DNA of 64,000 bases, taken from NCBI GenBank assembly GCA_948567375.1, contig OX419758.1:39199473-39263472 (forward strand), read 5' to 3'. Positions within the stretch are counted from its first letter, which is position 1. Each line of letters begins with the position of its first letter. This document shows positions 19,087 through 61,599 of the stretch, piece after piece. Below the pieces are notes generated by a model. That model worked only from the letters and a program-made list of their open reading frames with translations, did not search any database and was not told the origin of the DNA. This stretch comes from Lunularia cruciata (taxonomy: Eukaryota > Streptophyta > Marchantiopsida > Lunulariales > Lunulariaceae). The position numbers were made by a program, and so were the translations under genes.

Positions 19087-19893
19087 ATGCCTTTCAAGAA
19101 CAAGTTATTTCCAAATAGTACTCTAGTGAGTAGACCAATCTATTGGCTCTTCTTTGGAGGAACTTTGACAACACTGACCAAGTTGTTGGAAAGGATTTCA
19201 TGCAATAAATTACATCTCCTTAAGGAGCACCAATACTCTTTGTACCAAAAAAGGATGGAGGACTTTGATTTTATATTGACTACCTTGACCTTAATGAACA
19301 AACTATGAAGATATGTATCCCTTGCCTTGAATTGATGACTTGTTGGATCAATTAAGTAGAGCACAATACTTCTCAAAGTTAGATCTTTGAAGTGGCTATT
19401 GGTAGATTTACATTGATAGGGAGGATGTGACAAATATTACCTTTTGCATGAAGTATGGGCATTTTGGATGGAGAGTTCTCCTTTTTGGGCTCACTAATGC
19501 TCCAATAGTTTTCATGGATCCAATGAATTAGATATTGAAGGGTATTAGATTGATACTTAGGGGTGTTCTTGGATGATGTTTTAATCTATAGTAAGATGGA
19601 GGAAAATTGTAAAAATCATGTATAAGATGTCTTAAGACTACTATGCCAATGGAAGTTCTTTTGCAAGAAGTCAAAATATACCTTTTGGCATAAACATGTT
19701 ACCTTCTTGGGTCATAGGGTTCATTCTAGAGGATTAAGATGAAAGAAGAGAAAGCCAAGGCAATCAATGATTGGTATACTCCTAAGGAGGCCATGGAAGT
19801 TTAGGCATTTCATGGATTGGCATATTTTTACTCTTGGTTCATCCACTTTTATGATAATGTGGCCTGTATTGTTGAAAAATCTCTTGGGGACAA
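19087..19893 (+). pseudogene. Reverse transcriptase of beta element
   Basis: Fragments give PxIDDLLDQLSRAQYFSKLDL, then KYGHFGWRVLLFGLTNAPIVFMD, then GVFLDDVLIYSKME, which retains the FLDD catalytic box, and a YTFWHKHVTFLGHRVHSRG thumb segment. Stops and frameshifts separate them. Delta copy A interrupts the sequence at 19894. Confidence 0.85.
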
Positions 19894-20546
19894 TGTTGTG
19901 CGTATATACATCGCTACACAACATACATCGCTGTCAACATCATACACTATAGAAACACAACTCACACATAAGTCATACATAGACTCTAAAGTGCCACAAT
20001 AATCAGATTGCTTAACACTCTCAACTCAGATCAAAACTTGATCTGTCACTCTATAAACTGCCAACAACTGGGCACTAATTACAGTCAAGCCACACCCACT
20101 CAAGCATAGAGAATCCAGGTGACGCTTGCCGGCCTCTGTCCACCATAGCCAGGAACTTGAAGGCTCAACATCAGAGAAGTGAGCTCTCTGGAGCTCACTT
20201 CAAAACTATACCTCCTGGACTCGAGCTAGCACTAGAACCCTAACGGTCCCGCTGATGGCACACTTGACGGTGCAAACGGTGCAAAGTGACGGTGGGCCCC
20301 ACCGTGAAGTCAGTACCCTGAACACCAAATCAGACTGTCGGAAAGTAGTCCCTGAGAAACTACTAGAATAACTCTAACTACTATCACTGGAACTCCAGTG
20401 TCCGAGCAGCTAGATGCGGAACTACAAATGGCGTGACAGCTATCGTGCATATATACATCACTACACAACATACATCGCTGTCAACATCATACATTATAGA
20501 AACACAACTCACACATAAGTCATACATAGACTCTAAAGTGCCACAA
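19894..20546 (-). repeat. Delta copy A compound 3' terminus: A - LTR core - A
   Basis: A 439-bp LTR core (20000-20438) matching the 5' LTR is flanked by two direct copies of a block of about 105 bp (block A, 19894-19999 and about 20440-20546). Both contain TATATACATC, ACATACATCGCTGTCAACAT and TCTAAAGTGCCACAA. The 5' LTR (29355-29810) has no block A on either side. Copy B shows the same arrangement, so this is a family property. A purine run (GGGGGGCG, minus strand) at 20548-20556 probably serves as the polypurine tract. Confidence 0.85.
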
Positions 20547-20717
20547 TCGCCCCCCTAGCTGGCGGTTAGGTCCCTCTACCTCCAGATAGCCATCAACTCT
20601 AAGTATATGTTATACCCTCTAATGGGCAAAGATCAGGAGGCTGGGTGCTATGGAGCCCCATCGTTAGTCGCCTGTCTGCAATCTATACCATATAAAGAAT
20701 GAACTAGCTACAGGTCA

Positions 20718-21059
20718 AGTACATCTAGGACATAACCACTGTCCCTAAGGAACCACCGTGAGGGGAGGAGTCATACATGCCATATGCCATCCTCTCGAAC
20801 AGCTATCACACACTAACATAGTAGCAGCTCCACCAGAAGAGCCACATAACATACACCTCAAGCCTGCACGTACAAGTGCCAAGCTTGGGTCCATAGTACC
20901 ATCAATGTTTGGAAGGTGGCATGGCGCACAATTGCGCACATGATCCTTCCAAACAACACCATCACGTCCTTCTAACACAAGGACTCCAAATGGCAAAACC
21001 TCGCGCACTCTCAAGATAGTGCGGCCTGTAGAAACATCAAGTGTCATCGGTGCTATCTG
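20718..21059 (-). pseudogene. Integrase C-terminal extension with PHD finger, delta copy A
   Basis: This continues the integrase frame after one TAG stop at about 21060. A short barrel-like stretch (TILRVREVLPFGVLVLEG) comes first. Then comes a full C4HC3 zinc-finger pattern: CMLC, 11 residues, CDSC, four residues, H, two residues, C, then after 14 positions CPRC. GWHMAC and GQWLCPRC are diagnostic of PHD fingers. One TAG stop (20745-20747) falls between the two halves, and the frame ends at a stop at 20715-20717. PHD fingers read histone H3 tails, often the lysine-4 methylation state. In chromoviruses this position is held by a chromodomain. All eight zinc ligands are present. Confidence 0.88.
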
Positions 21060-22334
21060 CTATAGATATACATAGTTGCCTGGATGAAATCGACGGATCG
21101 AGGGTCTATAACCTCCTCCTTGAATGGTAGCATAGCGTAAAGTATCTCTATGCTGAGCAATCGCCAAGTTCTCAAAGGCCATCGGCATCACTCTCCGAAA
21201 GATCTCTGCCCGCTGAGAACATGCGCTCATCCATACATCGGGGTCATCCAAGTCCAAAACTATAGTAACATCTTGACGAATGGCTGCACGTAAATCTGGA
21301 TCTCGTCCATAAAGTAGAAAGTATGGAGAGAAGGATGCTAAGGAGGCTTGCCGGCTGAACCGATAGCCCATGGCCAACCAAGGTACCTGGAGATCCCAAT
21401 CTCCTAAGTGGCCTCTCTGCAAACCATACTTTTGCAATCCTCTCTTCACTGTCTGAACCACTCTCTTTGCTAAGCCATCTGCCTCAGGGTGATCTCGGGA
21501 TGTAGTACGATGATCAATCAAAGCCTTGTCACACAAGACCTGAAACTCTCCCAAGAACTCTGTACCCTGATCAGTCAAAACCTCAGCTGGTGCACCAAAA
21601 TGACTAAGAACTCGATCTAGGAACGAGTAAGCTGTCCCCTCACTAGACTTGTCAGGAAGTGCCACCAACTCAATCCACTTGGAGAAGTGCTCCACCATCA
21701 CCAAAACATACCGATGATGTCTCACAGTCAGCGGTAAATGTCCGGCGAAGTCCAAACTCCAACGGTAACCCAATCCCATGATAGGTAATGGGTGTAACTG
21801 TGGCGTAGGAGCATTGAATGATGCTCTAACTCAGTCACAAACCACGCATCTGGCAACAAACTGCTGTACCTCGGTCTGCATACCGCGCCACCAATAATGA
21901 CTCTGAAGTAAGCTATATGTATGCTTTACTCCAAAATGTCCTAGCTCCTCATGAGCATGACGGACCAACTGTGGTCTCTGTGATGGAAGTGGTACCACTT
22001 GCACTCTACCATCCTCCCATACACGCAAAAGGTGTCTACCCTCCAATCTGAACCGTCTGGCTCGCTGAAGAACACGGTCTCTCTCCTTGGCCCCAACTGT
22101 GCCACCCACAACACCAGTGCGAAGATAGTCCATCACTAAGACATCATCATGAATGTCTCGCTGAACTGTACCAATATCTTCACTCTCTGGATGAGTGACC
22201 TCAATAACTCCTCCTGTATGCGCTGAGAGAGATACCACCAAAGCCTCTGCAAATATACACAGAAAGGCCGATGCATGCCAACCTGGCACCATCTCCTCAT
22301 CTGTCTTACCATGCCAACGTGCTCCGGTCTGATC
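21060..22334 (-). pseudogene. Integrase of delta copy A
   Basis: The frame contains the HHCC zinc-binding domain (HAHEELGHFGVKHT, then CVVC at about 21835). The RNase H-fold core follows, with the first Asp in SLDFAGHL and the second in LTDQGTEFLGEF. The expected catalytic Glu position reads ADGLAKRVVQ, that is Lys. Copy B has the same Lys. A GPY-like segment and a hydrophobic FHPGNYVYL precede the PHD extension. In-frame stops occur at 21831 and 21060. With Lys in the DDE triad this protein should not be catalytic, unless Glu is provided by another copy. Confidence 0.85.
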
Positions 22335-23790
22335 CTACTGGCTGGGACATGGGTTTCTACTCAACCCATCTGCATCACGGTTCACCACTCTAGGTCTGTG
22401 AACAACCGTGAAATCATACTCCTGTACAATCAAAGCCCATCGTGCAAGCTTCCCTGAAAGCTTGTCGGACTCCATCAACCACTTCAGTGGCTGATGATCA
22501 ATGATGAGAGTGAAAGGGTTACCAAATAGGTAACATCGGAAATGTGCTACTGCCCAAACTACTGCCAAGCACTCTCCCTCATATGAACTATACTTTGCCT
22601 CCGCTGAATTGTTGGAGCAACTAGCATAGGCCACCACAAACTCCTTCTCCTCATCATCATGTTGGGTGAGCACCGCTCCAAGCCCCAACATACTCTAATT
22701 AGTATGAACCTGAAATGGTTGTCCCCTGATCGGTCTCCTCAAAATATGAGCAGATGTCAACCTCTCCTTGAGCTCTACAAAAGCTCTCTCCTGCTCATCT
22801 CCCCAACACCACTCATGTGTAAGCTTGGTCAGCTTCGTCAAGGCCTTGGCAATGGCACTAAATCCTCTAACATAGCGGCGATAGAAGTTTGCCAACCTAA
22901 GGAATGCTCGCACTCTACTCACATCCGTAGGCCAAGGAATACATGCAATAGCCTCCACCTTGGTCTGCTGGACACCAAGTCCTCCGGGGTAGATAGTGTG
23001 ACCCAAATACTCAACCTGCTTGTGGAAGAACCTACACTTCCCAGGATGTAGTTTGAGTCCATGAGATCTCAACCTCTCAAACACCTCCAACAATTGTCTC
23101 TCATGCTCCTCCACAATAATGCTATAAACCAAAATGTCATCAATATAGCACCAAGCAAAATCCAATCCAGCTAGGATCCTATCCATGACCCTCTGGAACT
23201 CAGCAGGAGCGTTCTTCAACCCAAATGGTAAGAACCTCCACTGATATAACACATCCTTGCCGTGAGGATCAATAGCCCAAAATGCTGTCTTGGACTTATC
23301 CTCCTCCTTGATTGGCAACTAATGATATCCCGCTCGAAGATCCAAAGTACTGAAGACCTTTGCATGCCCAATCGCATCAAAAATCTCCTCCGGTGTAGGC
23401 ATGGCATACCGATCAGCCCTGGTCTGTTGGTTGATAGGATGGTAATCTCCACATATCCGCCTATCTATATAGTTGCCATGCATATCCTTCTTGGCTGGCA
23501 TCACTGTTGCTGATGCATACTCTCCATGTGAAATCTCCACCAAACCAACCTCAAAAAGGTCACTACTCCGGCTCTAAATCAATGTCCTCTCCATATCACT
23601 ATATCAATAAGGACGTCGGAAAACTGGTGTGTTGCTAGTCAGCTCACTCCGTATACCAGGTCCCTTTAGAGCACCCAAATCCTTCATACTAAAGGCAAAA
23701 CAACTAGTGTGACTCCTCAAGAACCTCCAAACCCTCCAAACCCTCCGTCTTTCCTCTCCAGTAAGCTTGGTCCAAGATCTGGCTCCCAAG
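22335..23790 (-). pseudogene. Reverse transcriptase and RNase H of delta copy A
   Basis: RT fingers and palm: YASATVMPAKKD, RRICGDYHPIN, FSTLDLRAGYHQ-type first Asp, FLPFGLKNAPAEFQ and the catalytic YIDDILVYS (about 23135). The thumb includes FLRLANFYRRYVRGFS. RNase H starts at QVHTN (Asp replaced by Asn) followed by a TAG stop at 22692, then LGLGAVLTQHD, YASCSNNSAEAKYSSYEGECLAVVWA, and HQPLKWLM to DADGLSRNP. The single frame change of the polyprotein lies between 23837 and 23543, upstream of the palm. It is homologous to copy B, where much of RT is deleted. Confidence 0.9.
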
Positions 23791-24169
23791 TATCCTCTGT
23801 AACTGTAGTAGGAGTGGAAGACGTATTGACTGGCTGCTACACTGGGCCCTTGGGAGCAATAGTGTCATGCTCCCGATTACTAGAGGTCCCAACCTCTGTG
23901 TGAAAAACTCCCTCCACTTTGGCTGCAAGCTCCACACATCCTCTGGCTGCATCCCATGTGGACCAAGAGTGTAATCCAAGTAGCCCACGCTCACCTGGAT
24001 GGACTCCAAGTAGACCACTCTCCTTAGTAGCTACTGGATGTGTCCCAAGAATACCATGTCCACTCGGTCCATCGCCCCCAGCATGTGCCTGAATTGTCTC
24101 GATAGGCACAGGGCTCACAAGTGTCCAAGTGGTGATGCCTATCAAGCGCATCCTATGCTGCTCTGCCAA

Positions 24170-25130
24170 GCCAAGGCTCACAATCCTGGTCAAACAGTTC
24201 AGGTCCATAGCCTGACCTAACACCTGACGCCTAGATGCCTCTGACACTGCTAGAACAGCGGTAATACCGGTGCAAAAACCCATCGCCCGCTCTCTCTCAT
24301 CAACATTGGGCTCCACCAACTGTTGTAACCGTGAGTCCCAAACAAGTCCAGGTCCTCCCTCTCAAAAAGCATGAGAGCCTGGGAAACTCATGAGTGTGGG
24401 AAATGCAGCTCTAGGCTGTCCAACTAGGTTCACCACTGCCATAGGTGACCTATCAGCCACTACCATTGTCTGAGACTGACGTCCAACATCCAAGATATCA
24501 TCAACAAGAATGTGGTCTAGTCGCTGAATCCCATCATAACTACGCTGTAGAACCTCTCTGGGTAAGAGGTTCGTCCACCAAAGACGAAGACGATGAGCCC
24601 GTGATCCCACTCTGGCTGCATCTAACAATACATCAGGTCCTATCCATGAATGGACCTGATGTGTACTCGCCACCATTCTAGTGCAAGAATCACCCATCAA
24701 TGGAACATTCTCCAAAAGGTAAGCTGGAGAAATAGACTGATGAACCTGGAGATGTCGTAGTATCCATAACATCTCCCAAAACACACCAGAACGAGGATCC
24801 TAAAGACCCAAACCGTGGCCCGCACGTGTATGTCCCTGACATGGCCATCCAGAAATCACCAAGTGAATAGGCCCATGTCTCTCTAGGTCATGTGCCCCCA
24901 GTAAGGAAATGTCTCCTGGTAAGGCCTTCTGGTAACCTCTGACTGCTGACATCGGTAATAACTCCGGATACCGATAAGCCAAGTGTGCGACATGATGTAG
25001 AGAGACTTGCCTAGCAGTCTCATCTCTCTCTACATACAACTACCTTTGTACTCGTATACCCGCTTGTAACACCGCAGCTAGTCCGGTGCTGATCCCACCA
25101 AACAACTCCAATAGGCATATCCCCTCTATT
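24170..25130 (-). pseudogene. C5 cytosine-DNA methyltransferase domain, delta copy A
   Basis: It lies in frame between protease and RT. C5-methyltransferase motifs occur in canonical order. Motif I is LLELFGGISTGLAAVLQAGI (25055-25114), the AdoMet-binding loop, followed by a VERDETA acidic segment. Motif IV is ISGWPCQGHTRAG, with the catalytic Cys codon at 24839-24841. Motif VI is LLENV (about 24691-24720), motif VIII-like GSRAHRLRLWW (about 24578-24606), and an RAAFPTLMSFPGSHAF segment (24362-24410). Motif X is RRQVLGQAMDLN (about 24195-24240). The order and the LFGGISTG / SRAHRLRLWW flavour are closest to DNMT3-type enzymes, not to the rearranged plant DRM. It runs about 315 residues. Stops at 25040, 24800 and 24362 break it. 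The known reaction of the family is methyl transfer from AdoMet to DNA cytosine C5. Confidence 0.92.
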
Positions 25131-25134
25131 GGAT

Positions 25135-25987
25135 ACTGCCAAGCAATGAGTGTGGTATCCAGAGGTGTCAAAGCAATCGCCTCTGGATGCTCATCCTCAC
25201 ACTCATCCCCTGATGGTACAAAGGCTCCACTCCAAGCCTGCTGCACCAACTGATCTGCATGCTGCTGCAATGCCTCCTCTGAACTCCACAATGGAACATC
25301 CAAGGTGGATCGAACAATCCCACTCATACTCCATAGCCGAGTGATCTCCTCTGGTACTGGAGTATCCTCTGCATGGGCGTTCCCCTCCAACAAGTCACCA
25401 GGCCAAGTAACTGCACCGCTGAAAGCCAAAATTGATGCTGCCATGGTCCCGGACTGTAGTGAGCCAAGACTGCCACTACTGAAGCATACTGGTAGGTGAC
25501 ATACCCGTCCCTCACCAGACTGCCAACCAGGTCTATAAGAGGCTATCTCCTCCCAATAGTCAATGCTGAAACCCATAGGGTATAACACTGCTCCCCCAAC
25601 TAGCACATCATATGACTCAGCTATCGTCGCAATAGCCTGAGCTCTCACCACCGAGCTATCAGTCGGATGACCAGGCTGAACTTGGACAACAAGCTCTCCA
25701 CGTGTGATGTACTGTGTTGAACCACCACCAAGAGATGTCTGGATCTGAAATGGACACCTCTCCACATCGGTCTTCCGTAACTCCAGACCGACAACTACAG
25801 CCTTCCCCAACATAAGGGGCTGCGCACCAGAGTCTAACAAGACTCTTTGTGGTGTATAAACCTTCCCTGAAAGTCCCACCAAACAAAAGATCCCCCTTTG
25901 GTTATCCAATAGGACAACACCAGGTGTAAACCGCGCTCTCTCAAAGGCCGGTCTAGTTGGCAACTCCTCCAGTCTAGCCGTTGCTGC
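25135..25987 (-). pseudogene. Aspartic protease and linker, delta copy A
   Basis: The open frame 25963-25040 starts in a linker. It gives the retropepsin core with QRVLLDSGAQPLMLGKAVV (active-site DSG at about 25826-25845), a SYDVLVGGAVLYPMGFSIDYW C-terminal segment, and then a linker of about 130 residues rich in acidic residues that leads into the methyltransferase. The DSG motif is intact. The frame continues unbroken from here into motif I. Confidence 0.88.
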
Positions 25988-28015
25988 CTACCATAAACCA
26001 CTGGTCGCTGAACGGATCCCATGCTCCTCAACCAAGTCAGCTCCACTACCAACCACCTCTGCTCTAGTAGTAGGAACTGCACCATACCTACTCTCACACA
26101 ATGTGGCAGCCAACCGGGACACTAGGGCTGGGTCAACTCCCAATGTAAACATGTCATTGGCTGAAAACAAAGGATGCCGCATAATCAGCTGAGCCGCCCC
26201 CAACATCATGCTAGACTCAGTTTGTGTAGTAGTAGGTGGCTGACTAATAGGTAGTCCATCATGTACTCCATCACCACCTACCACACCTGCACTGGGACGT
26301 CTAGGAACCATGGATGTCGTCTGTAATGCCTCAGATAGCGTGAAAGACTGGGGAAGTCTGACCTGTCTCCCAACCTCTCCTCTCTGTGGGTCCAACTCCA
26401 TTGATGCTCCTCTAGGCTCTGGAGCACGTACTGCACTCCTAGTCACTGTTGCAGATGCATCCACCTATGCTGCTCCGCACATGAAGTCCAAAGCATCTCT
26501 ATCACCAACATATGAGGTTGAAGCCTCAACACCCGAATTTGATCTCCTTTGAGCAATAGCCATACTAGCCAATCTCTGCTCCAACTGCTCAATCCGAGTA
26601 GCCATAGCTGTGTTTGAAGTAAGGGCAGGTACTGCACCCCTACTAGATGTAGATCCTCTACTACCTTGTCCTCCATGAACTAGAGCTCCTCTACTACCTG
26701 CCATAGTAGCCCTACCACTCCGTAACTCCGGGTGTAGGTCAAAACACCGGTCACTAGTGTGACCAAATCTATGGCAGTGCTCACACTGCCTCTATGCTGG
26801 CTGTGATGCACCAGAGGTATCAGGTCCGCTGCCCTGAGTACACTCTCTCCTATGGTGAGGTCCACCACAAGTCCAACAAGCAACACCACCACTCATTGGC
26901 TGCTATTGACCCGAAAATGAGGGTAAGGGTCTAACTCCACTAGGCCCTCCACTCGCTCCATAGGATCTGGGCTATCCACCTTGTCCTTGAAAACCAACTG
27001 GGCGTGGTGCACTCTGCTGCACTCTAGAAGAAGTCACAACTGTGGATGAGGTCTCTCTACCAAATCCAGATGTCACCACTCTCTCCTCCACCATGTTGAG
27101 CTCAATACGCTCAGCCAAACCAAAGACACCTGCCAAAGTGGGCGAAGTAGCCTGCAACAACGTAGCATCACGAACTCTACGTTGCAACTCCCTGTCCAAT
27201 ATCCCATACCAAAACTGGACTGCTTGGGCCTCAGTAACTCCCTGAGTGAAATTGATCAGCCACCTCATGCGAGTATATGCCTTGCGTAGGCTCTCTCCAG
27301 CCTTTCGCTGGAACTCCTACAAGCTCCTCAGCTTGTCAGTCCGCACTCCCTGGTAGTTCTGCCTCAAACATAGGAAGAACTCAACCATGGGGTTAAACCC
27401 CGGTACCACACCACCTCTTGCAGCGGTACCTCCACTCGTAGTAACACTATCTCCAGCTAGTGTACCTCCACTAGCTCCACCAACACTACTCGAGCTAGAA
27501 CTCGTGGGTACAGCCGATCTACTCTTGGCAACCGAGCCTGAAGTGATGGAGACATAATGTGGAGACCAATATTGTCTCCATAACTTGATCTCCTCCAAAT
27601 GAGCTCTCCTGAACTCATGGTAGTCATCCATCGGCGGACCCTCCAGATGCTGGAACAACCCCTTCCATGCCATGAAGGGTGTGAACAAAGTTGGGTTCCG
27701 CATCTACTGCAGATCACACCAACTATCAAACTCCTAGATGAAGTCATCCAACTCAATGGTACCCACTGTACTAGAGTAACGCCTAGGGCCTTTGGAGGCC
27801 CCATAAATCTCGTCCATGTCCCACAACAATGGTGCGGACACACCAAGTGCACTCTCAACTGAATCAACTCCTGTGTCAAACTCCAACTCAGAGTCAATCT
27901 CCTCCCTCACTGGGACCTGAGATACAAGCTGATACCAAGCACCACTCCGAGTAAACCCACTACGTATTGCATGGCTAACTCCTCTGGAATCTCCAAAGGA
28001 CTCCGTCGTGACCAT
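25988..28015 (-). pseudogene. Gag of delta copy A
   Basis: The best start is the ATG at 28015 (MVTTESFGDSRGVS), conserved in copy C at 62850, although the frame is open upstream to 28111. The N-terminal region is acidic. The capsid-like middle carries WKGLFQHLEGPPMDDYHEFRRA and, further on, MRWLINFTQGVTEAQAVQFWY. Two nucleocapsid knuckles follow: CWTCGGPHHRREC (about 26845-26885, slightly irregular spacing) and CEHCHRFGHTSDRC (about 26755-26800, CX2CX4HX4C). About eight in-frame stops, mostly TAG at Gln positions, interrupt it. No frameshift is needed. Confidence 0.85.
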
Positions 28016-29354
28016 GTAACTGCAACAGCAAACCCGAACCACCAACTGCAACCGCAAGTCACAACCGCAAGTGCCCCACCAAGTGCCAACACCACCACGT
28101 GCCAACACCAACTAGACACCACCCACTAATGTAACTTTAACCAAGATAACTACACTAGGGGAAAGGCAACCTGTAACCTGCCATCATAACACGCACTCTC
28201 ATAATCTGCAGGTCATCACTTCCTGCCTTACCGGAGAGAAACAAAGGTAGTCTGATTGGTCATCACTCCAGCCTCACCACCGAGAGCACACTAGAGCACC
28301 AACGCTCAAAAGTCAGGGCACCTCACACAAACGTGGTGCACAAACAGGAAGCAAAGAATGGAGGAGATCAAATCACAAGAAATCTAATCAAAAACCCTCC
28401 ATCTCATAACACAACACGGGACTGACTCTGCCACCATTTGGCATTTGACATAAGAGCAGTTTGTATCTAAGTCCTAAGCTACCATGATCACCAAGAATGG
28501 GATCAAACTGCCTCTCCTAGCCAAAGCTACATGTGTATAGATAACAGTGGCGCAGTCACTAGGACAACAAGTGAGGGTGGACCAGTTGGCTAGGGCACCA
28601 GTCTAGGAACAAGAGATCTAGAGGTCAAACCCTGTTGCGCACAATCTAGCAAGAAAGGCAGATTTTGCCAACCAATGACCAAGATCTACTCTAAACTAAC
28701 TAGCAAGCCAGCAAGCCAACTTGCTGGCTTGCTGACCCTTCTAGTCCTTTGTAGCCTCTCATAGCCCATAGCCCTATGCCTCGAAGCCTTGAAATGCCAA
28801 AATTCAGCCAAATGAGGCCTTTCTTGTTGCCACTTCAAAACCTCTTCCAAAATTGGCAAAACTTCTCCAAATATGTGAAAGTCCTCCAAACTAGCAAAAC
28901 TCCTCCAAATCTGGCCAAATAGTGAAAACTCCTCCAAATCTGACATAAAATCTGACGTAAACCCTAAAGATGGCTGTCTGCCAAATCCCTCGCTAACTTT
29001 CCACTCGAGCCAAATTGACAAAACGGGTTTTTCCAAATCACAATTTCATGAGAAGAGCTTCCCAACTCCACCTTCAATTTCACTTTTTGAGCCCAACTCG
29101 CAGCAAATTGGTCTTGCCTTCACCTCCTGAGCTCAAAATCACAACACTACTCAAAAATTGCTCCTTCTTTGCTCAAAATTTGGCCGGCACTTCCGCACAC
29201 CGTCCGCCTAACTGCCAAATTGAATCACTTGAACGAGCTTCTGCACACTAAGGAAACAAAACTTGAATCGAGCTACCACGATCCACCGAGCTTGGAGATA
29301 CCACCAACACTCAACGTTCTTGCACCCGATTTCCCCCTGACTTCACTTCTCTGA
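28016..29354 (-). other. Delta copy A leader, non-coding
   Basis: A leader of about 1.3 kb between 5' LTR and gag, conserved in copies B and C. It contains many short imperfect repeats built on AAATTTGG/CCAAATCT (28800-28990) and the tRNA-like segment at 28570-28645. No canonical primer-binding site follows the LTR end: the minus strand reads TCAGAGAAGTGAAG there. Confidence 0.7.
28570..28645 (+). repeat. tRNA-like segment with A and B boxes (SINE-head-like)
   Basis: On the plus strand, antisense to the element, TGGACCAGTTGG (28578-28589) resembles a tRNA A box. AGGTCAAACCC (28622-28632) resembles a B box with one mismatch to RGTTCRANNCC. The 44-bp spacing fits tRNA-derived SINEs. The same segment occurs in copies B (51289-51342) and C (58430-58486, minus). 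I see no full cloverleaf, so it is not called as a tRNA gene. Confidence 0.45.
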
Positions 29355-29810
29355 TGTAATCAGATTGCTTAACACTCTCAACTCAACTCAACTCAACTCA
29401 GATCAGTACTTGATCTGTCACTCTATAAATTGCCAACAACTGGGCACTGATTACAGTCAAGCCACACCCACTCAACCATAGAGAATCCAGGTGATGCTCG
29501 CTGGCCTCTGTCCACCATAGCTAGGAACTCGAAGGCTCAACACCAAAGAAGTGAGCTCTCTGGAGCTCACTTCAAAACTATACCCCCTGGACTCAAGCTA
29601 GCACTGGAACCCTAACGGTCCCGCTGATGGCACACTCGACGGTGCAAACGATGCAAAGTAACGGTGGGCCCCACCGTGAAGTCAGTACCCCAAACACCAA
29701 ATCAGACTGTCAAAAAGTAGTCCCTGAGAAACTACTAGAATAACTCTAACTACTATCACTGGAACTCCAGTGTCCGAGCAGCTAGATGCATAACTACAAA
29801 TGGCGTGACA
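29355..29810 (-). repeat. 5' LTR of delta copy A
   Basis: 456 bp, minus strand TGTCACGCCATTTG...CTGATTACA. It corresponds to the core at 20000-20438 with about 20 substitutions, mostly transitions, and an expanded ACTCA microsatellite at about 29378-29400. It lacks the flanking block A that brackets the 3' copy. Confidence 0.88.
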
Positions 29811-30250
29811 ACAACATCAGGCTTTGTGTGGACAACCAAGCACAAAGAAGCATTAAAGAAATTGAAGTATATAGTTTGTTCACGTTCCAACTTCCAACTA
29901 TATGATCCCAAACTACCAATTGTGGTTGATTTTGATGCTTCTAACTTTGCCATTGAAGTTGTGTTGCAACAAGAATCTCCAAATAGACTACATCCCATTG
30001 CCTTTGTGTCTTGTGGACTAAACAAATTAAAAATAAATTACTCTACCCAACATCAAGAACAATTGGCAGTGGTATAAGCCACAAAGGTATGGAGATATTA
30101 TCTCTTGGAGAAACAAGTGATTATACAAATAGATCAAAACCTTACAATTGGAGCATGTGAAGAATTGACATCATTGATGGGAGAAACAACTAAATTTTTG
30201 ACATCAAGCTTGAGTAAAAACCCGGCAAGTTCCATATCATCCTTGATGCC
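29811..30250 (+). pseudogene. RNase H of beta element (continuation after delta insertion)
   Basis: It resumes with TSGFVWTTKHKEALKKLKYI, then PIVVDFDASNFAIEVVLQQE (RNase H catalytic Asp region), and LHPIAFVSCGLNKLKINYST with a following EQLAVV. A stop at 30075 and further frame damage follow. It directly continues the RT sequence cut at 19893. Confidence 0.85.
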
Positions 30251-31187: not shown

Positions 31188-31879
31188 TGTAACACCCATT
31201 TGTGCATGTGTGTGGTATTGTGATATTTAGCTTGGTATTACAAGTACTTAAGAGATATTATTTATATAGAGATAAAGGATGGTTCTATATTAGTCATGGT
31301 TAGCTAAAGTTAGTCATAGCTAAGATAGATGGGACCTTACTTTAGAGGAAGTAGAAAAGATGAGCACCACTATTTTGGATTTTAGTGTGTTGACTTGGTA
31401 TTATTCCTAGGTGTTTGGCTTTGGGGAAAGAGTTGAGAACTCTTGGGCCCGCAAGCCTTTTTGTTTTGGATTCTTCTTTAGTCCAAGGATAGCCCATGTG
31501 AAGGAATCCTTGCTTTAGTGGTTGGGTCAAGATAAGACCACATGCTTAGGGGAATATGCCCATGTGAATGGATATTCCTTTCTACTTTTTGACTTTACTT
31601 GACTTTTAGTCTAGTAACTTGAGTTACTACGGTAATTAGTAACTTTGGTACATAACTATTTCACAAGTATATAAACAAGGAGTGAGGAGGTACTCATCAT
31701 CCTTTCATTTGCAACTATCTCTCTCTCATTGAGTTCTCTAGTGAGCAATGTCTTGAGTCTTGGAGTGTTAGCCTTGGAGGAGTATGATGGAGTTGGGGTT
31801 CCTTGCCTTCTTAGTCCATGGTGCGCTACCTTAATAGCCATCAGAGGTTCATCCTGAGTGAGAGACAGGCCGGCTCACA
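31188..31879 (+). repeat. 5' LTR of alpha copy 1
   Basis: 692 bp, TGTAACACCC...CGGCTCACA. It differs from the 3' LTR at two sites: A/G within GTACxTAAC, and G/T within GAGACAxGCC. Confidence 0.97.
31668..31674 (+). promoter_or_regulatory. TATA box of alpha LTR promoter
   Basis: TATATAA lies about 210 bp before the LTR end and is conserved in the 3' LTR (38814-38820). It probably sets the U3/R transcription start. Confidence 0.65.
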
Positions 31880-31883
31880 TTTT

Positions 31884-31901
31884 TGGTTCCGTTGCCGGGA
31901 C
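31884..31901 (+). promoter_or_regulatory. Primer-binding site for tRNA-Glu
   Basis: TGGTTCCGTTGCCGGGAC is complementary to CCA plus the acceptor and T arm of plant tRNA-Glu as I know it (3' end GTCCCGGCAACGGAACCA). It sits four bases after the LTR. It is unlike the iMet site of the beta and gamma elements. Confidence 0.85.
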
Positions 31902-32715
31902 CTCTCTAGAAGGCAAGATAATGTTCCGCGTCCAATTCTACATTAGGCAGAAGGAGGCTATGAGAGCTCACTTGGAGAGAACATTAGGAGAGGAGAGGGC
32001 TGAACTTATGTTAGAGAACCAAGATCCATTTGTATACTCTGTAGTTCATTATGATGTCTTTGAGGTGATTTTGTACATCTTGTACACATGAGAGGAATTG
32101 GAGAGATTGTGTGAGGTGGATTGCAGATTTTGGGGATTAAGGTGATTTTGGGCAAAATCTCAAGTTTGAGATCTGGACTTGATATTTCTACACATGATAG
32201 CTTGGGTTATCTTTCAGTTAGCACACTTGAAATTATTGAGAGAGCTTCTATGCGCACTGGGCTAGAATTTTTGAAAGTTGATAGGGTAAAGTGCTCCCGC
32301 AACTGCATGCTCTCTGGAAAATTGTACAGAGTCTGCCATTTCTTCAATTTTCAGTGAATTGTCCTGAAAATTTCCAAGAAAATTCAGTGCATTGTATCCT
32401 ACCTGCTGCCACAAAAATTAGAGAGAGATCGTTTTTGCGCAGGGCGTGATGAGTTTTTGAAGTGAGGGGGGTGGTTTTCAGACCAAATCTGAAATATGGG
32501 TGCTGAATAGAAAGGTGTCTAGGCCAAATGGCTCGATGAAAAGATCTGAAATTTTGCAGGGAGGGACGCCCTGGAGTTGTGATCAAGTGTGGAAAATTTA
32601 AGAGGACTGTGACATATTGGTTGGGAGATTTGAGTGACATTGTGAGGAAGGGTCAATTCTGCAGAGTGGAGATCTCATGCATGAGAAGTTTGAGATCAAC
32701 AAAAAGCATGTTTGA

Positions 32716-33213
32716 GTGTTTAGATTCATCTTGGGGAACATGGAGGGTCATCAAGAGTGGAAATTGAGATTATACAATGTTCCCCAAGGGTTTGAGGTGA
32801 TTGTAGGGGTGGATTTGAGGAAAAGAGAGTTTACAATAGAATTTGAAGAGAGTGTTGAGAGGATCCAAAAACCTACACCACTTGGAGGAAAGAGTGAGTC
32901 TAAGTGCTTTCTATGTGGAGAGAAGGGACATAAGGCAAGTTCATGTCCATTGACCTTTGAGAGCAAGAGATTGAGGGAAAGGAGAAGCTTACTTGACTTG
33001 GGTTTGCATGTTGGACCTTCTTCACCAAGATTGGGAGGGAGAAGATCTAAGACCAAGGAGTTGTGTGAGGTTTGTGGAGTTGAAGGACTTCCAAAAGGAC
33101 ATGAGTGTAGTGGAGTAAAAGCACTTTTGGAAACTTTGGTGAAGGATCTTGGAGAGAGTCTTAGTACAGCTACAGAAATACTACCACCTTCATCAGCTAG
33201 TTCTCAAGATTAG
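32716..33213 (+). CDS. Alpha ORF0: small zinc-knuckle protein upstream of gag-pol
   Basis: An intact 165-codon ORF between leader and gag-pol. An alternative ATG at 32743 (MEGHQEWKL) may be the true start, because similarity to copy 3 is clear from there. The N-terminal half (LRLYNVPQGFEVIVGVDL, FTIEFEESV) looks like a small alpha/beta domain of the type found before knuckles in plant gag/DUF4283-like proteins. Then comes CFLCGEKGHKASSC (CX2CX4HX4C) and a second Cys-rich CEVCGVEGLPKGHEC. The tail is Ser-rich. Probably a nucleic-acid-binding accessory protein. Decayed versions precede gag in copies 2 (39410-39721) and 3 (10030-10519), so it is a family feature. Function unknown. Confidence 0.7.
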   Translation: MFRFILGNMEGHQEWKLRLYNVPQGFEVIVGVDLRKREFTIEFEESVERIQKPTPLGGKSESKCFLCGEKGHKASSCPLTFESKRLRERRSLLDLGLHVGPSSPRLGGRRSKTKELCEVCGVEGLPKGHECSGVKALLETLVKDLGESLSTATEILPPSSASSQD

Positions 33214-33449
33214 TGATGGAGATAATCTTTCAACTTATGGATAAACTATCCATGAGAGTTAGATTAATATGCACTCTAGGATTTGATGTTGCTATAGAAA
33301 TCTTGGAGCAACCTGAACCTTTTTTGTTCCCTAGAGTGGATTATTCTCAGATGGTGTTAGTCATGTATATACTCTATTAGTAATAGAGTGAGAAAAAAAA
33401 AAAAGAAAAAAAAAAATTTGAGAGAAAAGAAAGATAGTGAGGGGTTAAG
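33214..33449 (+). other. Spacer between ORF0 and gag-pol
   Basis: A non-coding spacer. It includes an A-rich run (about 33393-33417) just before the gag-pol ATG. The same arrangement, with A-rich runs of differing length, occurs in copy 2 (39722-39962). Confidence 0.6.
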
Positions 33450-36353
33450 ATGGAGAAACTTCCGGTTTTCTTTGGCAAGGATGGAGAAGATGTGGAGGCC
33501 TTTGTGAGAGACTTCAAGAGAGCTTGCATAGGAAACAATGAGAGGAGGAAGAATGAGTGGGCCTCATTATTACCAGATTTCTTTGAGGATGCAGCACTTA
33601 CATGGTATGAGTCAGAATACCAAAAGAGAGAGAGGAGAGAGGGGGAAGAGGAGTCTTGGGAGACTTTGACTTCAGCACTCATTGAGAACTTTCTTCCTGA
33701 TGAGAGTTATGAGAGATTGATGAGTGAGGTTACATTTCTCAAGCAAGGAGATGGAGAGAAAGTGAGGGTCTATGTGGAAAGAGTGGAAAAGTTGGAGTCC
33801 AGATTTCGCATAGTGTTGAGGAAGGGTGGGGATGATGTGGAGACTACAATGATTGGCATAGGGGCCATGCTCACCAAGAATTTTGTGGGAGGATTGAGAA
33901 CACAAATTAGAAGCAAGGTGAGATATGAGAAACCTTCTTCCAAGGTTGAAGCTATCAAGATCGCAATTTGTATGGAGGAGAGTTTGGAAGGGGATGAGAG
34001 TGATTTGGTGGTGAAGGAGGTTGTGCATCCTCCTCAAGGCTACAAGTATGGTGGAACTTCTGATACTTTGGTGACAAGGGTTGCACCACAAGTAGTAGTT
34101 GCTCCAGTTCTTGCACCTCCACCAAAAGATCCACTCCAAACCATCACAGAACAACTTGCAGATCTCAAGATCAATGTGGTGCAACTATGGGAGAAGACAG
34201 AGGTGGATCAGAATGTAGGGAGAGGGCCTAGGAGTTATGGAAACTATCCATATAGAGGAGGCCAACCAGCCAACAATTTCAATGATAGAAATTGTTTTGG
34301 TTGTGGAGGAAGAGGCCATATCCAAAGGAATTGCCCAAATTCCACTTACCATGGAGGAAGGGGTTATGAGGGAGCCAATAGAGGGAAAGAGGGAGGTAGT
34401 GAAACCCAAGTGGCTCCTAATCCCAACAAAGGTAAGGGGATAGCATCCATAGATGTGGTTGAGAGCAAGTATGAGAAGGGAGAGTGCTCAAACTCCAAGG
34501 GTCCTAATTTGGAGCTTTTGGCACAAGAGAAGAAGAGAGCTCGTTTTGCAGAGGATGTTCACTCTTCTCAAGGATTTACTTCAAGCAAGGATACTCCTAT
34601 GTCTACTAGGAGCACTCGCACCTCAGCACCATCAACAACAAAGACTCCAAGGAAGAAGTTGGGGATGGAGGACTTCTTGATCTCAAAGCAACAATGGAAC
34701 TACAATGTGTTGGAGGATGTTGGTAGTCACAAGGCTAACATCACAGTGGGCCAATTAATTGCTTTGAACCCTACCTTGAGAAAGGAGCTTAGAGGTGGTT
34801 TGAGTTCTACAAGGAGCAAGAAGAAGAAGAAGGCAAAAGTTCCAGTATCAATGGGGGTGGTGGATGCCAAGCCAGCACCATGGGAGGCTTGTGAATATGC
34901 CTCCAAGATTGATGTGAGAGTGAATGGTCACAACATCAAGGATGCATTGGTTGATGGAGGATCAGCAGTGAATGCCATGTCAGAAAGGTTGATGAAGAAG
35001 TTGGGTATGATACCCTCAAGACCTTCAACATTTGTGGTGAGCATGGCAAACAAGCAACAAGTTCGACCAGTAGGAGTGATGGATAAGGTGGTAGTTTCAG
35101 TTATGGGAGTCCAAAATCTCATGACTTTCCAAGTCTTGAAGGATTCAAGCTATGACTTACTTCTTGGGAGGCCATGGTTGAGAGCAGCACGCACAACTGA
35201 TCGATGGCACAAAGGGTACTTAAGGATTGGGCCATCAAACCATAGAGTCACTGTTCCTGTGACTAACACCACCAACACTTCACATTCAGATACCCCATCT
35301 TCTGATTATTGGGAATCAGATTCTGAAGGAGGAGCTTCAGGTGTGGACACAAGCATGGAAGAGGAGACTTCCACGGAGGAGGATGAATCTGAATCTGATT
35401 CAGATGTGTATCCTTTATGTGCTATGGATTTTGCACCTAAGCCAGAGGTTTTGAAGGACCCAGATAAATCACCATTGACACTTGAGGAGGTAGAGAGAAG
35501 GTTATCTACCCTCAAGTATGGCCCAAATGTTACCAAGGAGGAGAAGGTGAGATTTGAGGAGATTTTCCGCAAGTTCATCCATGTGTTTGCTTTTAGTTAC
35601 AAGGATTTGAAGGAAGTCACCTTGGAGGAGCACAAGATAGAGGTGGAGTCACATGCAAGACCAATCCGCCAAAAGCAACGTCGCATTAGCCCACCAATAT
35701 CTTTGGTTGTGAAGGAGGAGATTGATAAGCTCAAGGAGGCTGGATTTATCTTTGAGGTGGAGAATTCAGAATGGGTGTCTCCAATTGTCATTGTGAAGAA
35801 AAAGAATGGCAAGCTTCGGGTATGTGTGGATTACAAGAAGCTCAATGCTGTTACCAAGAAGGACTACTACCCATTGCCATTCATTGATGAGATCTTGGAG
35901 GAGGTTGCAGGTCATGAGAGGTACAGTTTTGGAGATGGTTATAGTGGATATAACCAAATCAAGATTGCACCAGAGCATCAACAACTCACCACATTCACCA
36001 CACCTTGGGGAACTTACGCTTTCAAGGTCATGCCTTTTGGGCTTTGCAATGCTCCAGCCACATTCCAACGGTTCATGAACAAGGTATTTGAACCTTTCAT
36101 TGGGAAATTTGTGAGAGATTTCATTGATGACTTTTGTGTCTATGGGAGCAAGGAGGAGCACTTTGAGCACCTAATCAAAGTCTTGCAACGCTTGGATGAG
36201 GCAAATGCATCACTCAACCCAGAGAAGTGCATTTTTGGATGTGAAGAAGGTCTACTTTTGGGGCACATCATCTCCAAGGATGGAATAGCAGTTGATCCTG
36301 AGAAGGTGAGGAAAATCTCAGACCTTCCATTCCCTTCAAGCTTGACAAAGTAA
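33450..36353 (+). CDS. Alpha copy 1 gag-protease-RT (5' part of gag-pol)
   Basis: 967 codons, ATG at 33450 in MEKLPVFFGKDGEDVEAFVRDF, the start of a retrotransposon gag capsid domain (about residues 1-180). The knuckle CFGCGGRGHIQRNC is near 34294-34335. The protease DGGSAVNAMSERL motif is near 34950-34990, with LLLGRPWL at its C-terminus (about 35160). An acidic linker (35330-35410) follows. RT runs from about 35640: VSPIVIVKKKNGKLRVCVDY, FGDGYSGYNQI, MPFGLCNAPATFQ and the catalytic FIDDFCVYG at 36119-36133. A TAA stop (36351-36353) ends the frame at the RT thumb. Copy 3 has a sense TTA codon here, so this is a recent nonsense change. Confidence 0.93.
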   Translation: MEKLPVFFGKDGEDVEAFVRDFKRACIGNNERRKNEWASLLPDFFEDAALTWYESEYQKRERREGEEESWETLTSALIENFLPDESYERLMSEVTFLKQGDGEKVRVYVERVEKLESRFRIVLRKGGDDVETTMIGIGAMLTKNFVGGLRTQIRSKVRYEKPSSKVEAIKIAICMEESLEGDESDLVVKEVVHPPQGYKYGGTSDTLVTRVAPQVVVAPVLAPPPKDPLQTITEQLADLKINVVQLWEKTEVDQNVGRGPRSYGNYPYRGGQPANNFNDRNCFGCGGRGHIQRNCPNSTYHGGRGYEGANRGKEGGSETQVAPNPNKGKGIASIDVVESKYEKGECSNSKGPNLELLAQEKKRARFAEDVHSSQGFTSSKDTPMSTRSTRTSAPSTTKTPRKKLGMEDFLISKQQWNYNVLEDVGSHKANITVGQLIALNPTLRKELRGGLSSTRSKKKKKAKVPVSMGVVDAKPAPWEACEYASKIDVRVNGHNIKDALVDGGSAVNAMSERLMKKLGMIPSRPSTFVVSMANKQQVRPVGVMDKVVVSVMGVQNLMTFQVLKDSSYDLLLGRPWLRAARTTDRWHKGYLRIGPSNHRVTVPVTNTTNTSHSDTPSSDYWESDSEGGASGVDTSMEEETSTEEDESESDSDVYPLCAMDFAPKPEVLKDPDKSPLTLEEVERRLSTLKYGPNVTKEEKVRFEEIFRKFIHVFAFSYKDLKEVTLEEHKIEVESHARPIRQKQRRISPPISLVVKEEIDKLKEAGFIFEVENSEWVSPIVIVKKKNGKLRVCVDYKKLNAVTKKDYYPLPFIDEILEEVAGHERYSFGDGYSGYNQIKIAPEHQQLTTFTTPWGTYAFKVMPFGLCNAPATFQRFMNKVFEPFIGKFVRDFIDDFCVYGSKEEHFEHLIKVLQRLDEANASLNPEKCIFGCEEGLLLGHIISKDGIAVDPEKVRKISDLPFPSSLTK

Positions 36354-37817
36354 CGCCAATTCTTGGGAATGGTTGGGTACTATAGGAGGTTCATCTTCTC
36401 ATTTTCCAACAAGGCTTATGCATTGACCATCTACATGAAGAAGGGTGTAGATTACATGGTGATTTTGGAAGACAAGGAGGCTCTCAAAGCTTTTGAGGAG
36501 CTCAAGCAATCCCTTGTTGTAGCTCCAATTCTTGCTAAACCTGATTGGAGTAAGCCTTTCATCCTCTACACTGATGCTTCTAATGTAGCTATAGGATGCA
36601 CTCTTAGTCAATTAGACCAAGATGGGCATGATCATCCAATAGCTTATGCTAGTAGGCAGATGGTTTCAGCAGAGAAGAACTACTCTGTCACAGAGAGAGA
36701 AGGGTTGGCAGTGATCTTTGGTCTCAAGAAGTTTAGACACTACTTGATTGGAGGGAAAGCCACAATTGTCACGGATCACAAGGCTTTGAAGTACATCTTC
36801 AACAAGCCTAATGTTGAAGGGAGACTAGCAAGGTGGATGATTCTCTTGTCTGAGTATGACTACACAATTGAGGATAGGCCAAGAAAGAAACATGCAAATG
36901 CTGATTTGTTATCTAGAGCCTATGATCATGATGGAGATGAGCCAGTAGATGATTGCTTCCCGGATGAGGAGCTCATGACAATCTCAGTCACTCAAGAGGT
37001 TCCAATGGAGTACAAGGAGATTGTGGATTTTGTGACAAGAGGTAACTATCCAGAAGGGATGCATGCTAGGGAGAGGAAGGCCCTTGCAGCAAGATCTAGA
37101 CCTTACACAATGGTGGATGATATTCTTTTTCACCAAGGAGCAGATGGTCTACTTCGAAGAGCAGTGGGTAAGGAAGAGTCTATCTTACTCATAAAGGAGT
37201 TTCATGAAGGTTTAGTATGTGGAGGACACTTTGCAGGAAAGGTGACTGCTTTCAAGATTCTAGATGCAGGTTACCATTGGAGAGGGATTTTCAAGGATTG
37301 TCTTGATTATTGCAAAACTTGTCATGTTTGTCAAGCTTTTGCTAGAAAGTCTACATCCACTCCACCACTTAGATCAATTCCATTGCTAGGACCCTTTGAG
37401 AAGTGGGGAATTGATTTTGTAGGACCTCTCAATAGAACCCCAAGGAACAATCGGTACATTGTGGTAGTTACTGATTACCTTACCAAGTGGGTTGAGGCTA
37501 GACCATTGAGGGACAAGAATGAAGATGAAGTGGGTAGATTTCTTTATGAACGCATTATCACTAGGTTTGGATGCCCTTTGGAGTTGGTTTCTGATAGAGG
37601 AGGAGAGTTTACAGGAAGCATTACTACAGCCATGCTACGACATTTCTCTATCACACATAGAGTAACTACATCCTATAAGCCAAATTCCAATGGCTTGGCA
37701 GAGAGAACCAATCAGACCTTGTGCATGATGTTCGCCAAAGATGCAGAAATGGAGGGGCTAAACATCATTGGGACAAGAGGATTCATGCAGTTTTGTGGGA
37801 GTATAGGACAACCATGA
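36354..37817 (+). CDS. Alpha copy 1 RNase H-integrase (middle part of gag-pol)
   Basis: It continues the same frame after the TAA stop. The thumb is FLGMVGYYRRF. RNase H has LYTDASNVAIGCTLSQ (Asp), the ITxREGLAVIFGLKKFRHYL region and DHKALKYIF. Integrase has the zinc-binding FHEGLVCGGHF...YCKTCHVCQAF, first Asp in WGIDFVGPL (about 37405), second in SDRGGEFTG (about 37595) and Glu in NGLAERTNQ (about 37700). All three catalytic acids are present. The frame then shifts near 37745-37765 and ends at an out-of-frame stop at 37817. It lacks a Met start of its own, being the downstream part of one polyprotein. Confidence 0.92.
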   Translation, partial: RQFLGMVGYYRRFIFSFSNKAYALTIYMKKGVDYMVILEDKEALKAFEELKQSLVVAPILAKPDWSKPFILYTDASNVAIGCTLSQLDQDGHDHPIAYASRQMVSAEKNYSVTEREGLAVIFGLKKFRHYLIGGKATIVTDHKALKYIFNKPNVEGRLARWMILLSEYDYTIEDRPRKKHANADLLSRAYDHDGDEPVDDCFPDEELMTISVTQEVPMEYKEIVDFVTRGNYPEGMHARERKALAARSRPYTMVDDILFHQGADGLLRRAVGKEESILLIKEFHEGLVCGGHFAGKVTAFKILDAGYHWRGIFKDCLDYCKTCHVCQAFARKSTSTPPLRSIPLLGPFEKWGIDFVGPLNRTPRNNRYIVVVTDYLTKWVEARPLRDKNEDEVGRFLYERIITRFGCPLELVSDRGGEFTGSITTAMLRHFSITHRVTTSYKPNSNGLAERTNQTLCMMFAKDAEMEGLNIIGTRGFMQFCGSIGQP

Positions 37818-38275
37818 AGACTTCCACTGGATATTCTCCATTCCAATTGGTGTATGGTATTGAGTCTACCTTACCTATTCACTTTGATCTTCCTACCTTC
37901 CAAAGCATTCATAGGAGATTGAAGAAAGCACAAGGAAGTGATGCAGAGAAGTCAAGGAAGGATCAACTCATGGAGTTGGAAGAGGCAAGAGCAGTTGCTA
38001 TGGTTCGAGTGGAGCAAGCCCAAAGGAAACAAAAGGAGAGCTATGACAAGAGGCAAGGCAAGAAGAAGGTGGAGCCTTTCAAAGAAGGTGATTGGGTAAT
38101 GTTGTTTGATTCCATTCGATTCAAGAGAGTACAAAAGAAGTTTTTGCCTAAGTACTTTGGACCTTTCATAGTAGAGAAGGTGTGGGGAAATTACACTTAT
38201 GATCTCAAGGAGTTGGGAGGAAGACACTTTGATAGGATTAACCATGATAAGTTGAAGATGTACCATAGAAGGTAG
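37721..38275 (+). CDS. Alpha copy 1 integrase C-terminus (3' part of gag-pol)
   Basis: The polyprotein continues in a second frame. The shift equals loss of one base relative to the upstream frame. The segment gives KHHWDKRIHAVLWEYRTT, GYSPFQLVYGIESTLP, a basic helix rich in Lys/Arg/Gln, and the C-terminal GPFIVEKVWGNYTYDLKEL motif. It ends KMYHRR and a stop at 38273-38275. There is no chromodomain. Only the overlap 37721-37760 is ambiguous. The true product is the end of gag-pol, not a separate protein. Confidence 0.9.
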   Translation: MHDVRQRCRNGGAKHHWDKRIHAVLWEYRTTMKTSTGYSPFQLVYGIESTLPIHFDLPTFQSIHRRLKKAQGSDAEKSRKDQLMELEEARAVAMVRVEQAQRKQKESYDKRQGKKKVEPFKEGDWVMLFDSIRFKRVQKKFLPKYFGPFIVEKVWGNYTYDLKELGGRHFDRINHDKLKMYHRR

Positions 38276-38310
38276 AGAGACCTTCACTTTGAGGACAAAG
38301 TGAAAACTTA

Positions 38311-38323
38311 GTCCGGGGGTAAA
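38311..38323 (+). promoter_or_regulatory. Polypurine tract of alpha copy 1
   Basis: GTCCGGGGGTAAA directly precedes the 3' LTR. The G run is the likely plus-strand primer site, though the tract is short and interrupted. Confidence 0.6.
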
Positions 38324-43858: not shown

Positions 43859-44019
43859 TTGCACTCCTAGCTGGGGATTAGGTCCCTCTAACTCCAGATA
43901 GCCATCTACTCCAAGTATATGGTATACCCTATGATGGGCAAAGATCAGAAGGCCAGGTGCTATGGAGCCCCATCGTTAGTCGCCTATCTGCAATCTATAT
44001 ATACCATAGAAAGAATGAA

Positions 44020-44363: not shown

Positions 44364-44399
44364 TGGTGTTGTCTGCTATAGATATACATAGTCTCTTGG

Positions 44400-45330: not shown

Positions 45331-45347
45331 ACATCATCATGAATGTC

Positions 45348-46150: not shown

Positions 46151-46157
46151 TGGTTTG

Positions 46158-61596: not shown

Positions 61597-61599
61597 ACA

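Follow-up and report, generated by a model that had tools for sequence, protein, structure and literature searches.

A Ty3/Gypsy element of Lunularia cruciata with a DNMT3-type methyltransferase ahead of a conserved UAG in a readthrough-type context

The stretch of Lunularia cruciata DNA analyzed here, in the following the window, spans 64,000 nucleotides (C7:39199473-39263472 of the searched genome of 565.8 Mb in 74 contigs). On its minus strand lies a Ty3/Gypsy element of 9,917 bp, W1 (19894-29810), delimited by its repeats, by the termini TGTC...AACA and by a 4-bp target-site duplication, ACAA, on the two flanks (29811-29814 and 19890-19893). Its 5' end is formed by the terminal repeat A1 (29358-29810; 94% identical to A2, K2P 0.061), followed by a 5' untranslated leader (27818-29357) that is common to a second copy, W2, and to the sampled copies extending that far. 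ORF1 (23837-27817, frame 1) runs to a UAG from an ATG at 27817, picked by likeness to the Marchantia protein P0002, and encodes Gag, zinc knuckles, a DSG protease and a methyltransferase (MTase), with several premature stops in W1. The aspartic protease region (25600-25987) is assigned from its motif, which reads DSGAQP in W1 (DSGA at 25823-25834), and is without a Pfam match. Beyond the UAG follow the reverse transcriptase (RT; 22698-23600, in the frame given by tblastn; PF00078, E 1.2e-23 on 22698-23318), RNase H (22338-22694; PF17917, E 1.5e-31) and an integrase with H2C2 zinc finger and rve core (21063-22334; PF17921, E 3e-17; PF00665, E 2.9e-14). The integrase C-terminus carries a PHD finger (20715-20855; PF00628, E 9.6e-8), including the UGA at 20715-20717 that ends ORF2 in all 22 copies compared. 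A putative polypurine tract, read from the letters as CTAGGGGGGCG (20548-20558), directly precedes repeat B1 (20445-20547; 97% identical to B2), and the element closes with A2 (20001-20438) and, at its 3' end, B2 (19894-20000), both placed by repeat comparison and the latter also by the element ends. The order protease, RT, RNase H and integrase with an rve (DDE) core is that of Ty3/Gypsy elements. W1 itself is a dead copy, with three stops in the MTase and a frameshift ahead of RT. RT/RNase H remnants of another, plus-strand Gypsy element flank it at 19412-19736 and 29814-30140, and W1 seems to have inserted into that element. No tRNA genes were found in the window.

The MTase, located in frame downstream of the protease at approximately 24115-25144 of the minus strand, is a full-length DNMT3-type C5 methyltransferase. 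In the minus-strand reading of 23837-25963, its motifs, named by eye, follow each other in the canonical, unrearranged order I-IV-VI-VIII-IX-X of the DNMT3 family (I, LELFGGISTGL; IV, GWPCQGH; VI, LLENV; VIII, SRAHRLRLWWTN; IX/X, DERERAMGF ... RRQVLGQAMDLN). PF00145 matches with 27.0 bits (E 3.9e-6; cut-off 22), provided that the three in-frame stops (TAG at 25040-25042, TAG at 24800-24802 and TGA at 24362-24364) are read as X. When the same stretch is taken as four separate open pieces, no Pfam match appears at E<=1, so that in W1 the domain is not only broken but also diverged. The nearest solved structures are DNMT3A, B and C (1.2e-9 to 1.4e-4), with M.HaeIII next (0.005), and the domain is nearer to DNMT3 than to DRM, DNMT2, DNMT1/CMT or bacterial enzymes. 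For L006, a copy from elsewhere in the genome, the predicted fold of the domain corresponds to a full MTase; the best 50 rows of a VIA-align comparison of this fold hold no DNMT1, CMT or DRM, which rules out none of them. The initial annotation, which had placed a complete DNMT3-like enzyme with motifs I, IV (PCQ), VI, VIII-like and X in canonical order inside a Ty3/Gypsy polyprotein, is hence borne out as to the domain, its minus-strand motif order and the PF00145 search it proposed. Completeness holds for the motifs but not for the W1 reading frame, the interval 24170..25130 is correctly located but slightly narrower than the domain, and the frame is shared with the DSG protease, as claimed, whereas RT is in another frame in W1.

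Two further members of the family are present in the window. W2 (43192-52513, minus strand) is old and broken and has the repeat plan A1...B1 A2 B2; its MTase region (46570-47864) is 88% identical to that of W1 in DNA. W3 (57258-64000, plus strand) comprises the 5' part only (A1, leader and gag) and runs off the window; an insertion in it, at 58971-62805, holds tandem-like repeats at 59348-60430 and 61605-61974. A protein search with the MTase matches only W1 and W2 within the window (E<=1e-3). Across the genome, a PF00145 scan yielded 2161 candidates at first look; 123 of them were scored, all above the cut-off and many with open frames of several hundred codons. With a 248-bp DNA probe spanning B1-A2, the first look yielded 5742 candidates, and the 40 that were scored all matched. 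These candidate numbers are distinct from copy counts. A few of the 123 rows are host genes as judged by eye, namely a DNMT3-like exon, a DRM-like piece and a CMT-like piece. The family is present in hundreds of copies in the genome, the assembly of which has been described as 580 Mb in size and enlarged by Ty3/Gypsy bursts in the accessible text of PMC9985172.

Twenty copies were fetched for comparison, corresponding to rows 9 to 30 of the 123 with two atypical rows omitted, i.e. the best PF00145 scorers rather than a random sample. All 20 carry the MTase between protease and RT. The initial annotation had named absence of the domain from other family members as grounds for regarding it as a separately inserted host gene fragment; instead, the MTase occupies the same place in 20/20 fetched copies, W1 and W2, 73 relatives were found in a first protein search, and the host's own DNMT3-like exon, read by eye, differs in sequence. 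A piece of host DNMT3 that landed in one copy and is foreign to the element can therefore hardly be entertained any longer. At three of the fetched loci, L012, L017 and L027, no MTase match was found besides the family copy.

Replacement relative to silent change in the MTase is 0.55 of the neutral value (14 of 22 copies; codon bootstrap 0.43-0.74), where the neutral value is corrected for sequence context from the measured CG, CHG and CHH substitution rates and copies judged to be frame-shifted are omitted domain by domain. Elsewhere the same ratio is 0.53 in the protease, 0.55 in the stretch before the protease, 0.45 in RT, 0.42 in Gag, 0.65 in the C-terminus with the PHD finger and 0.73 in the integrase. 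By this measure RNase H, at 0.93 (0.55-1.63), is without constraint, which speaks against the reading that we favor below, and the stretches flanking the MTase reach 0.81 (0.59-1.04) and 0.83 (0.48-1.27), with both intervals including 1. As estimated from these alignments, the MTase core is constrained about as strongly as the protease. A first set of pN/pS values (MTase 0.45, RT 0.29, GAG 0.31, RNase H 0.53 and integrase 0.58) is superseded, since it ignored mutation bias and included frame-shifted copies.

The MTase might also be retained because it has a structural function in the Gag polyprotein or binds nucleic acid there, with catalysis incidental or absent. The location of the domain on the Gag side of the UAG would suit such a role, as would the replacement of PCQ by PYQ in 2 of the 61 relatives in which motif IV is detectable by pattern (73 examined). 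However, the other 59 have the motif IV cysteine, and in an alignment of 25 of the 73 relatives little or no variation is seen at this residue, at the motif VI glutamate or at the motif VIII arginines. Together with the predicted fold of a full MTase, these residues make a purely structural role distinctly improbable.

The MTase is separated from RT by a stop codon. An in-frame UAG follows the domain in 21/21 copies (the 20 fetched and W1), and in 22/22 when W2 is included, where the frame is broken. In W1 it forms part of UAG CAG CCA (23831-23839), in agreement with UAG CAR YYA, and the CAR YYA context is found in 19 of the 21 copies, or 20 of 22 with W2, which retains TAG CAGCCA with the frame broken nearby. 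The exceptions, L012 and L014 (2/22), weigh against our preferred reading. An exact 24-mer around the UAG occurs 673 times in the genome and its reversed control not at all; with any codon allowed at the TAG position, the count rises to 697, so that TAG accounts for 96.6%, and among the non-TAG sites listed (4 of 24) are TAA twice, TAT and GAG. In ten aligned polyprotein stretches, by comparison, the ORF2 end is the only codon at which a majority of the copies have a stop. MTase and RT share one frame in 19/20 fetched copies, W1 being frameshifted between them. A similar arrangement is found in L058, a relative from another assembly, in which the domains read from the translation form an ORF1 of Gag, protease and MTase, a stop, and a same-frame ORF2 of RT, RNase H, integrase and PHD finger. 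Between its MTase and that of L006 the identity is 51%, and the stop with its context reads TAG CAA TCA. The two elements thus use different hexanucleotides that both fit CAR YYA, arguing for selection on the motif.

Tobacco mosaic virus signals readthrough by CAR YYA after UAG, known as type I (available text of PMC2754532 and PMC11166343), and the former mentions readthrough candidates among rice gypsy-type elements. The Lunularia element has the same stop and hexanucleotide context as the viral signal, conserved between copies and followed by a continuing frame; the difference from the viral cases is that here the UAG would part an MTase-bearing Gag product from RT. No stop of such kind beside an MTase was found among the top-ranked titles and abstracts of the openly licensed readthrough literature. 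If the UAG is leaky, as its sequence context suggests, the MTase would be made at Gag level, and RT, integrase and PHD finger would exist only in the readthrough product.

It is also conceivable that ORF1 simply terminates at the UAG and that RT is produced from a separate or spliced transcript. The Marchantia gene models P0010 and P0019 join MTase to RT, which a splice removing the stop could explain. Against this stand the frame that MTase and RT share across the UAG in 19/20 fetched copies and the CAR YYA context spelled with different letters in two elements, and we regard this explanation as unlikely. Two other readings can be set aside. A genetic code in which UAG means glutamine disagrees with C-to-T decay yielding UGA as well and with only the UAG behind the MTase being universal; a frameshift as recoding signal is hinted at by W1 alone, while the 19 of 20 fetched copies keep the frame from MTase to RT.

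The ends of the element indicate how it is inserted. With the element tips taken as TGTC...(G/A)ACA, an exact 4-bp target duplication is present in 13 of the 16 copies with both flanks visible (14 fetched, W1 and W2), and in none of the 16 was a duplication of 3, 5 or 6 bp found; in a control, 0/240 mismatched flank pairs agree at 4 bp. The three copies without the duplication (L013, L019 and W2) are counted against the favored reading. TG...CA ends and a short target-site duplication are typical of Ty3/Gypsy elements. The repeats, on the other hand, do not form matching LTRs at the two ends, but are split as A1 ... B1 A2 B2, with all four parts present in W1, W2 and 14/20 fetched 10-kb stretches, the edge of the stretch cutting B2 in most others. 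B1-A2-B2 is found in 18/20 fetched copies, the exceptions being L018, where A2 is shortened, and L028. In the latter, A2 is followed by the element leader and not by B2, as would be seen in a tandem array or a copy derived from a circle. At the internal B1-A2 junction, the letters of W1 resemble two element ends connected by a 2-bp linker. Although split repeats of this kind are DIRS-like, the rve integrase core and the target duplications are unlike DIRS-type elements, and ten scanned pieces covering part of the element gave no match to a tyrosine recombinase. As far as termini can tell, insertion looks like that of a DDE-type integrase acting on linear DNA, as the 4-bp duplications imply.

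Protein searches with the MTase returned 73 and 46 relatives, 105 different ones in all. Named sources are Marchantia polymorpha, Calypogeia fissa, Sphagnum and Closterium, and many others come from metagenomes. In 52 of the 105, the protein ends less than 330 residues past motif X; RT follows the MTase within one protein in nine, RT or RNase H precedes it in another nine, 28 are partial or unclear, and seven lack the motif used. The two sets of nine, in which the arrangement differs, speak against our preferred reading. The tree was built from 87 rows, in each of which over 230 query residues were matched within a span below 450, drawn from the 105 relatives, L058, the L006 domain and the host exon, the last of which dropped out with 56 matched residues; arrangement labels were set by motif order. 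The order RNase H-MTase-integrase occupies one side of a branch (support 99/89; 11 labelled rows, with two rows of this clade unlabelled), so the domain has moved at least once or has been captured twice. The window family falls inside a 20-row clade (100/100), the named members of which are Marchantia, Calypogeia and Sphagnum elements, and for another Gypsy element of the window the closest protein is from Marchantia (75%). The vascular-plant origin assumed in the initial annotation is thereby not supported, and the host is probably a bryophyte, either a liverwort or a relative.

Outside these sets, a scan of viral contigs turned up 15 matching loci at 26-43% identity. Of six loci from a genome scan, five are short matches on contigs of Streptomyces and Saccharothrix, and the sixth is the full relative L058. 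The latter lies on contig CADCWO010000201.1, filed as a cyanobacterial (Synechococcales) MAG, and another retroelement sequence, P0027, is filed under a Candidatus Obscuribacterales bin; both are probably eukaryotic, L058 being a probable contaminant of its bin. The C-termini of P0225, P0223 and P0073 have an extra stretch behind the PHD finger, with DPWAGDGA and SPWF in P0225, which by eye recalls a second methyltransferase.

Gypsy elements with unusual features are also known from green algae, as in the REM1 type of Chlamydomonas. The kind of element described here is already known: de Mendoza et al. reported in 2018, as the initial annotation had correctly stated for C5 methyltransferases of retrotransposons, a DNMT3 in a Gypsy element of Klebsormidium nitens with DIRS-like repeats, KnitGypsy-Dnmt3 (main text of PMC5890265). 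Compared by description, the Lunularia element shares with it the Gypsy domains, an unrearranged DNMT3-class MTase within the polyprotein, DIRS-like repeats and purifying selection on the MTase. The main text of PMC5890265 is without the terms 'PHD', 'target site' and 'split', and its sole 'stop codon' passage and two 'integrase' passages concern Symbiodinium elements. In the same text, fewer element copies are given for K. nitens, and no protein so named was returned by either of our MTase protein searches. SymbioDIRS-Dnmt3 of Symbiodinium likewise combines a retrotransposon DNMT3 with repeat sets A and B, but has a tyrosine recombinase (PMC5890265) where the Lunularia element has an rve integrase and 4-bp duplications. 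New here are the abundance in a bryophyte-type genome and the relatives in Marchantia, Calypogeia and Sphagnum, as well as the UAG CAR YYA between MTase and RT, the 4-bp duplications and the PHD finger behind the integrase. No report of MTase-bearing retroelements in bryophytes was found among the top-ranked titles and abstracts of the openly licensed literature.

The sequence itself establishes the domain and its constraint, how the parts are ordered, the context of the UAG, the termini and the target duplications. On this basis we propose, with a probability of roughly 60%, that the element makes its MTase at Gag level ahead of a leaky UAG, packages it and methylates the new DNA copy before integration. 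The Gag-protease-DNMT3 polyprotein would end at the UAG in its leaky context, and a minority of ribosomes would presumably read through, adding RT, RNase H, integrase and PHD finger. The MTase would then be present at approximately the level of Gag and likely be packaged in the particle, where it most likely methylates cytosines in the newly made DNA copy, possibly with the CG specificity expected by analogy with DNMT3. Next, the integrase would insert the methylated copy as a linear molecule, giving rise to the 4-bp duplications. Methylation of the element's own DNA copy, which the initial annotation had already suggested and which is plausible, is thus the likeliest role that we infer for the enzyme. 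In the main text of PMC5890265, the DNMT3 domains of two dinoflagellate retrotransposons, identified there as two SymbioDIRS-Dnmt3 copies, carry out de novo CG methylation in yeast. With the related KnitGypsy DNMT3, no methylation was seen in that system, a result that its authors deem inconclusive (PMC5890265) and that we count against the proposal.

Alternatively, the MTase may be produced in excess, enter the nucleus together with the integrase and methylate the insertion site or host chromatin, which would silence the new copy and spare the host some damage. Elsewhere, enzymes of the DNMT3 type work on chromatin, and the PHD finger attached to the integrase is a histone-reading type of domain; both are in favor of this alternative. 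Effects on the insertion site and slowed retrotransposition are also discussed in the main text of PMC5890265. However, PHD finger and MTase are on opposite sides of the UAG, and if readthrough is the minor path, most MTase molecules would be without a PHD finger. We consider action at the insertion site a possibility of some substance, but a doubtful one.

A wider history may tentatively be sketched. A single capture of DNMT3 by a Gypsy element before the origin of land plants might have given rise to a widespread group of green-lineage retroelements, today in bryophytes, a desmid and the organisms behind the metagenomes. In its main branch, the enzyme would have become a particle component at Gag level behind a leaky UAG, methylating new copies before they enter the genome, and such elements might keep more CpG and CHG than MTase-free neighbors because they live with methylation rather than evading it.

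Relatives of the family occur in Marchantia, which is genetically tractable. An MTase ahead of a conserved stop of leaky type predicts both the dose of the enzyme and its place in the particle. The element also offers a way to ask why mobile DNA carries a silencing-type enzyme; why a transposon should carry the class of enzyme that plants use against transposons is left open in the main text of PMC5890265.

In a preliminary comparison of base composition, CpG is at 0.43 and CWG at 1.41 of expectation in family bodies (17 copies), compared to 0.02-0.20 and 0.19-0.71 in other Gypsy sequences (six window stretches, two of them overlapping, and three at fetched loci, including an element with LTRs 99.7% alike). 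The contrast is tempered by W2, the oldest MTase copy, in which the values are 0.26 and 0.75, and by the remaining window DNA with 0.36 and 0.79; three host-gene loci have CpG at 0.61-0.82. Divergence between A1 and A2 ranges from 0.002 to 0.136 per copy (16 copies, ten of them at 0.018-0.031; W1 0.061 and W2 0.136), and its low values suggest, as judged from the repeats, that the family was active until recently. With the direction C-to-T assumed, transitions between A1 and A2 affect 87 of 565 CG, 78 of 816 CHG and 62 of 2201 CHH sites, next to 34 transversions in 7074 sites, and the 226 stops in the aligned stretches of the copies, excluding the ORF2 end, comprise 119 CAG-to-TAG and 44 CGA-to-TGA changes and 18 at mostly-TGG positions. 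As far as such footprints can be read, decay at CG and CHG is what is expected of ordinary host silencing, and marks set by the element and by the host are not separable; that CG and CHG decay alike, as host silencing would give, counts against our main proposal.

Several single observations accompany this pattern. Codon 260 of the MTase (24362-24364) is TGA in 11 of 22 copies, CGA in eight, CAA in two and TTT in W2. Sharing of the TGA by descent is disfavored, since the TGA copies are scattered on the tree beside CGA and CAA copies, and a recurrent CpG hot spot is likelier. In L019, the repeats A1 and A2 are identical at all but 1 of 446 sites, although the copy has two stops in the MTase and one in gag; it may have been mobilized in trans, or its repeats may have been converted. 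Finally, a young Gypsy element without an MTase occupies 31188-39015 of the window; it has 692-bp LTRs that are 99.7% alike and two open frames, of 970 and 487 aa, and its CG and CHG sites are strongly depleted.
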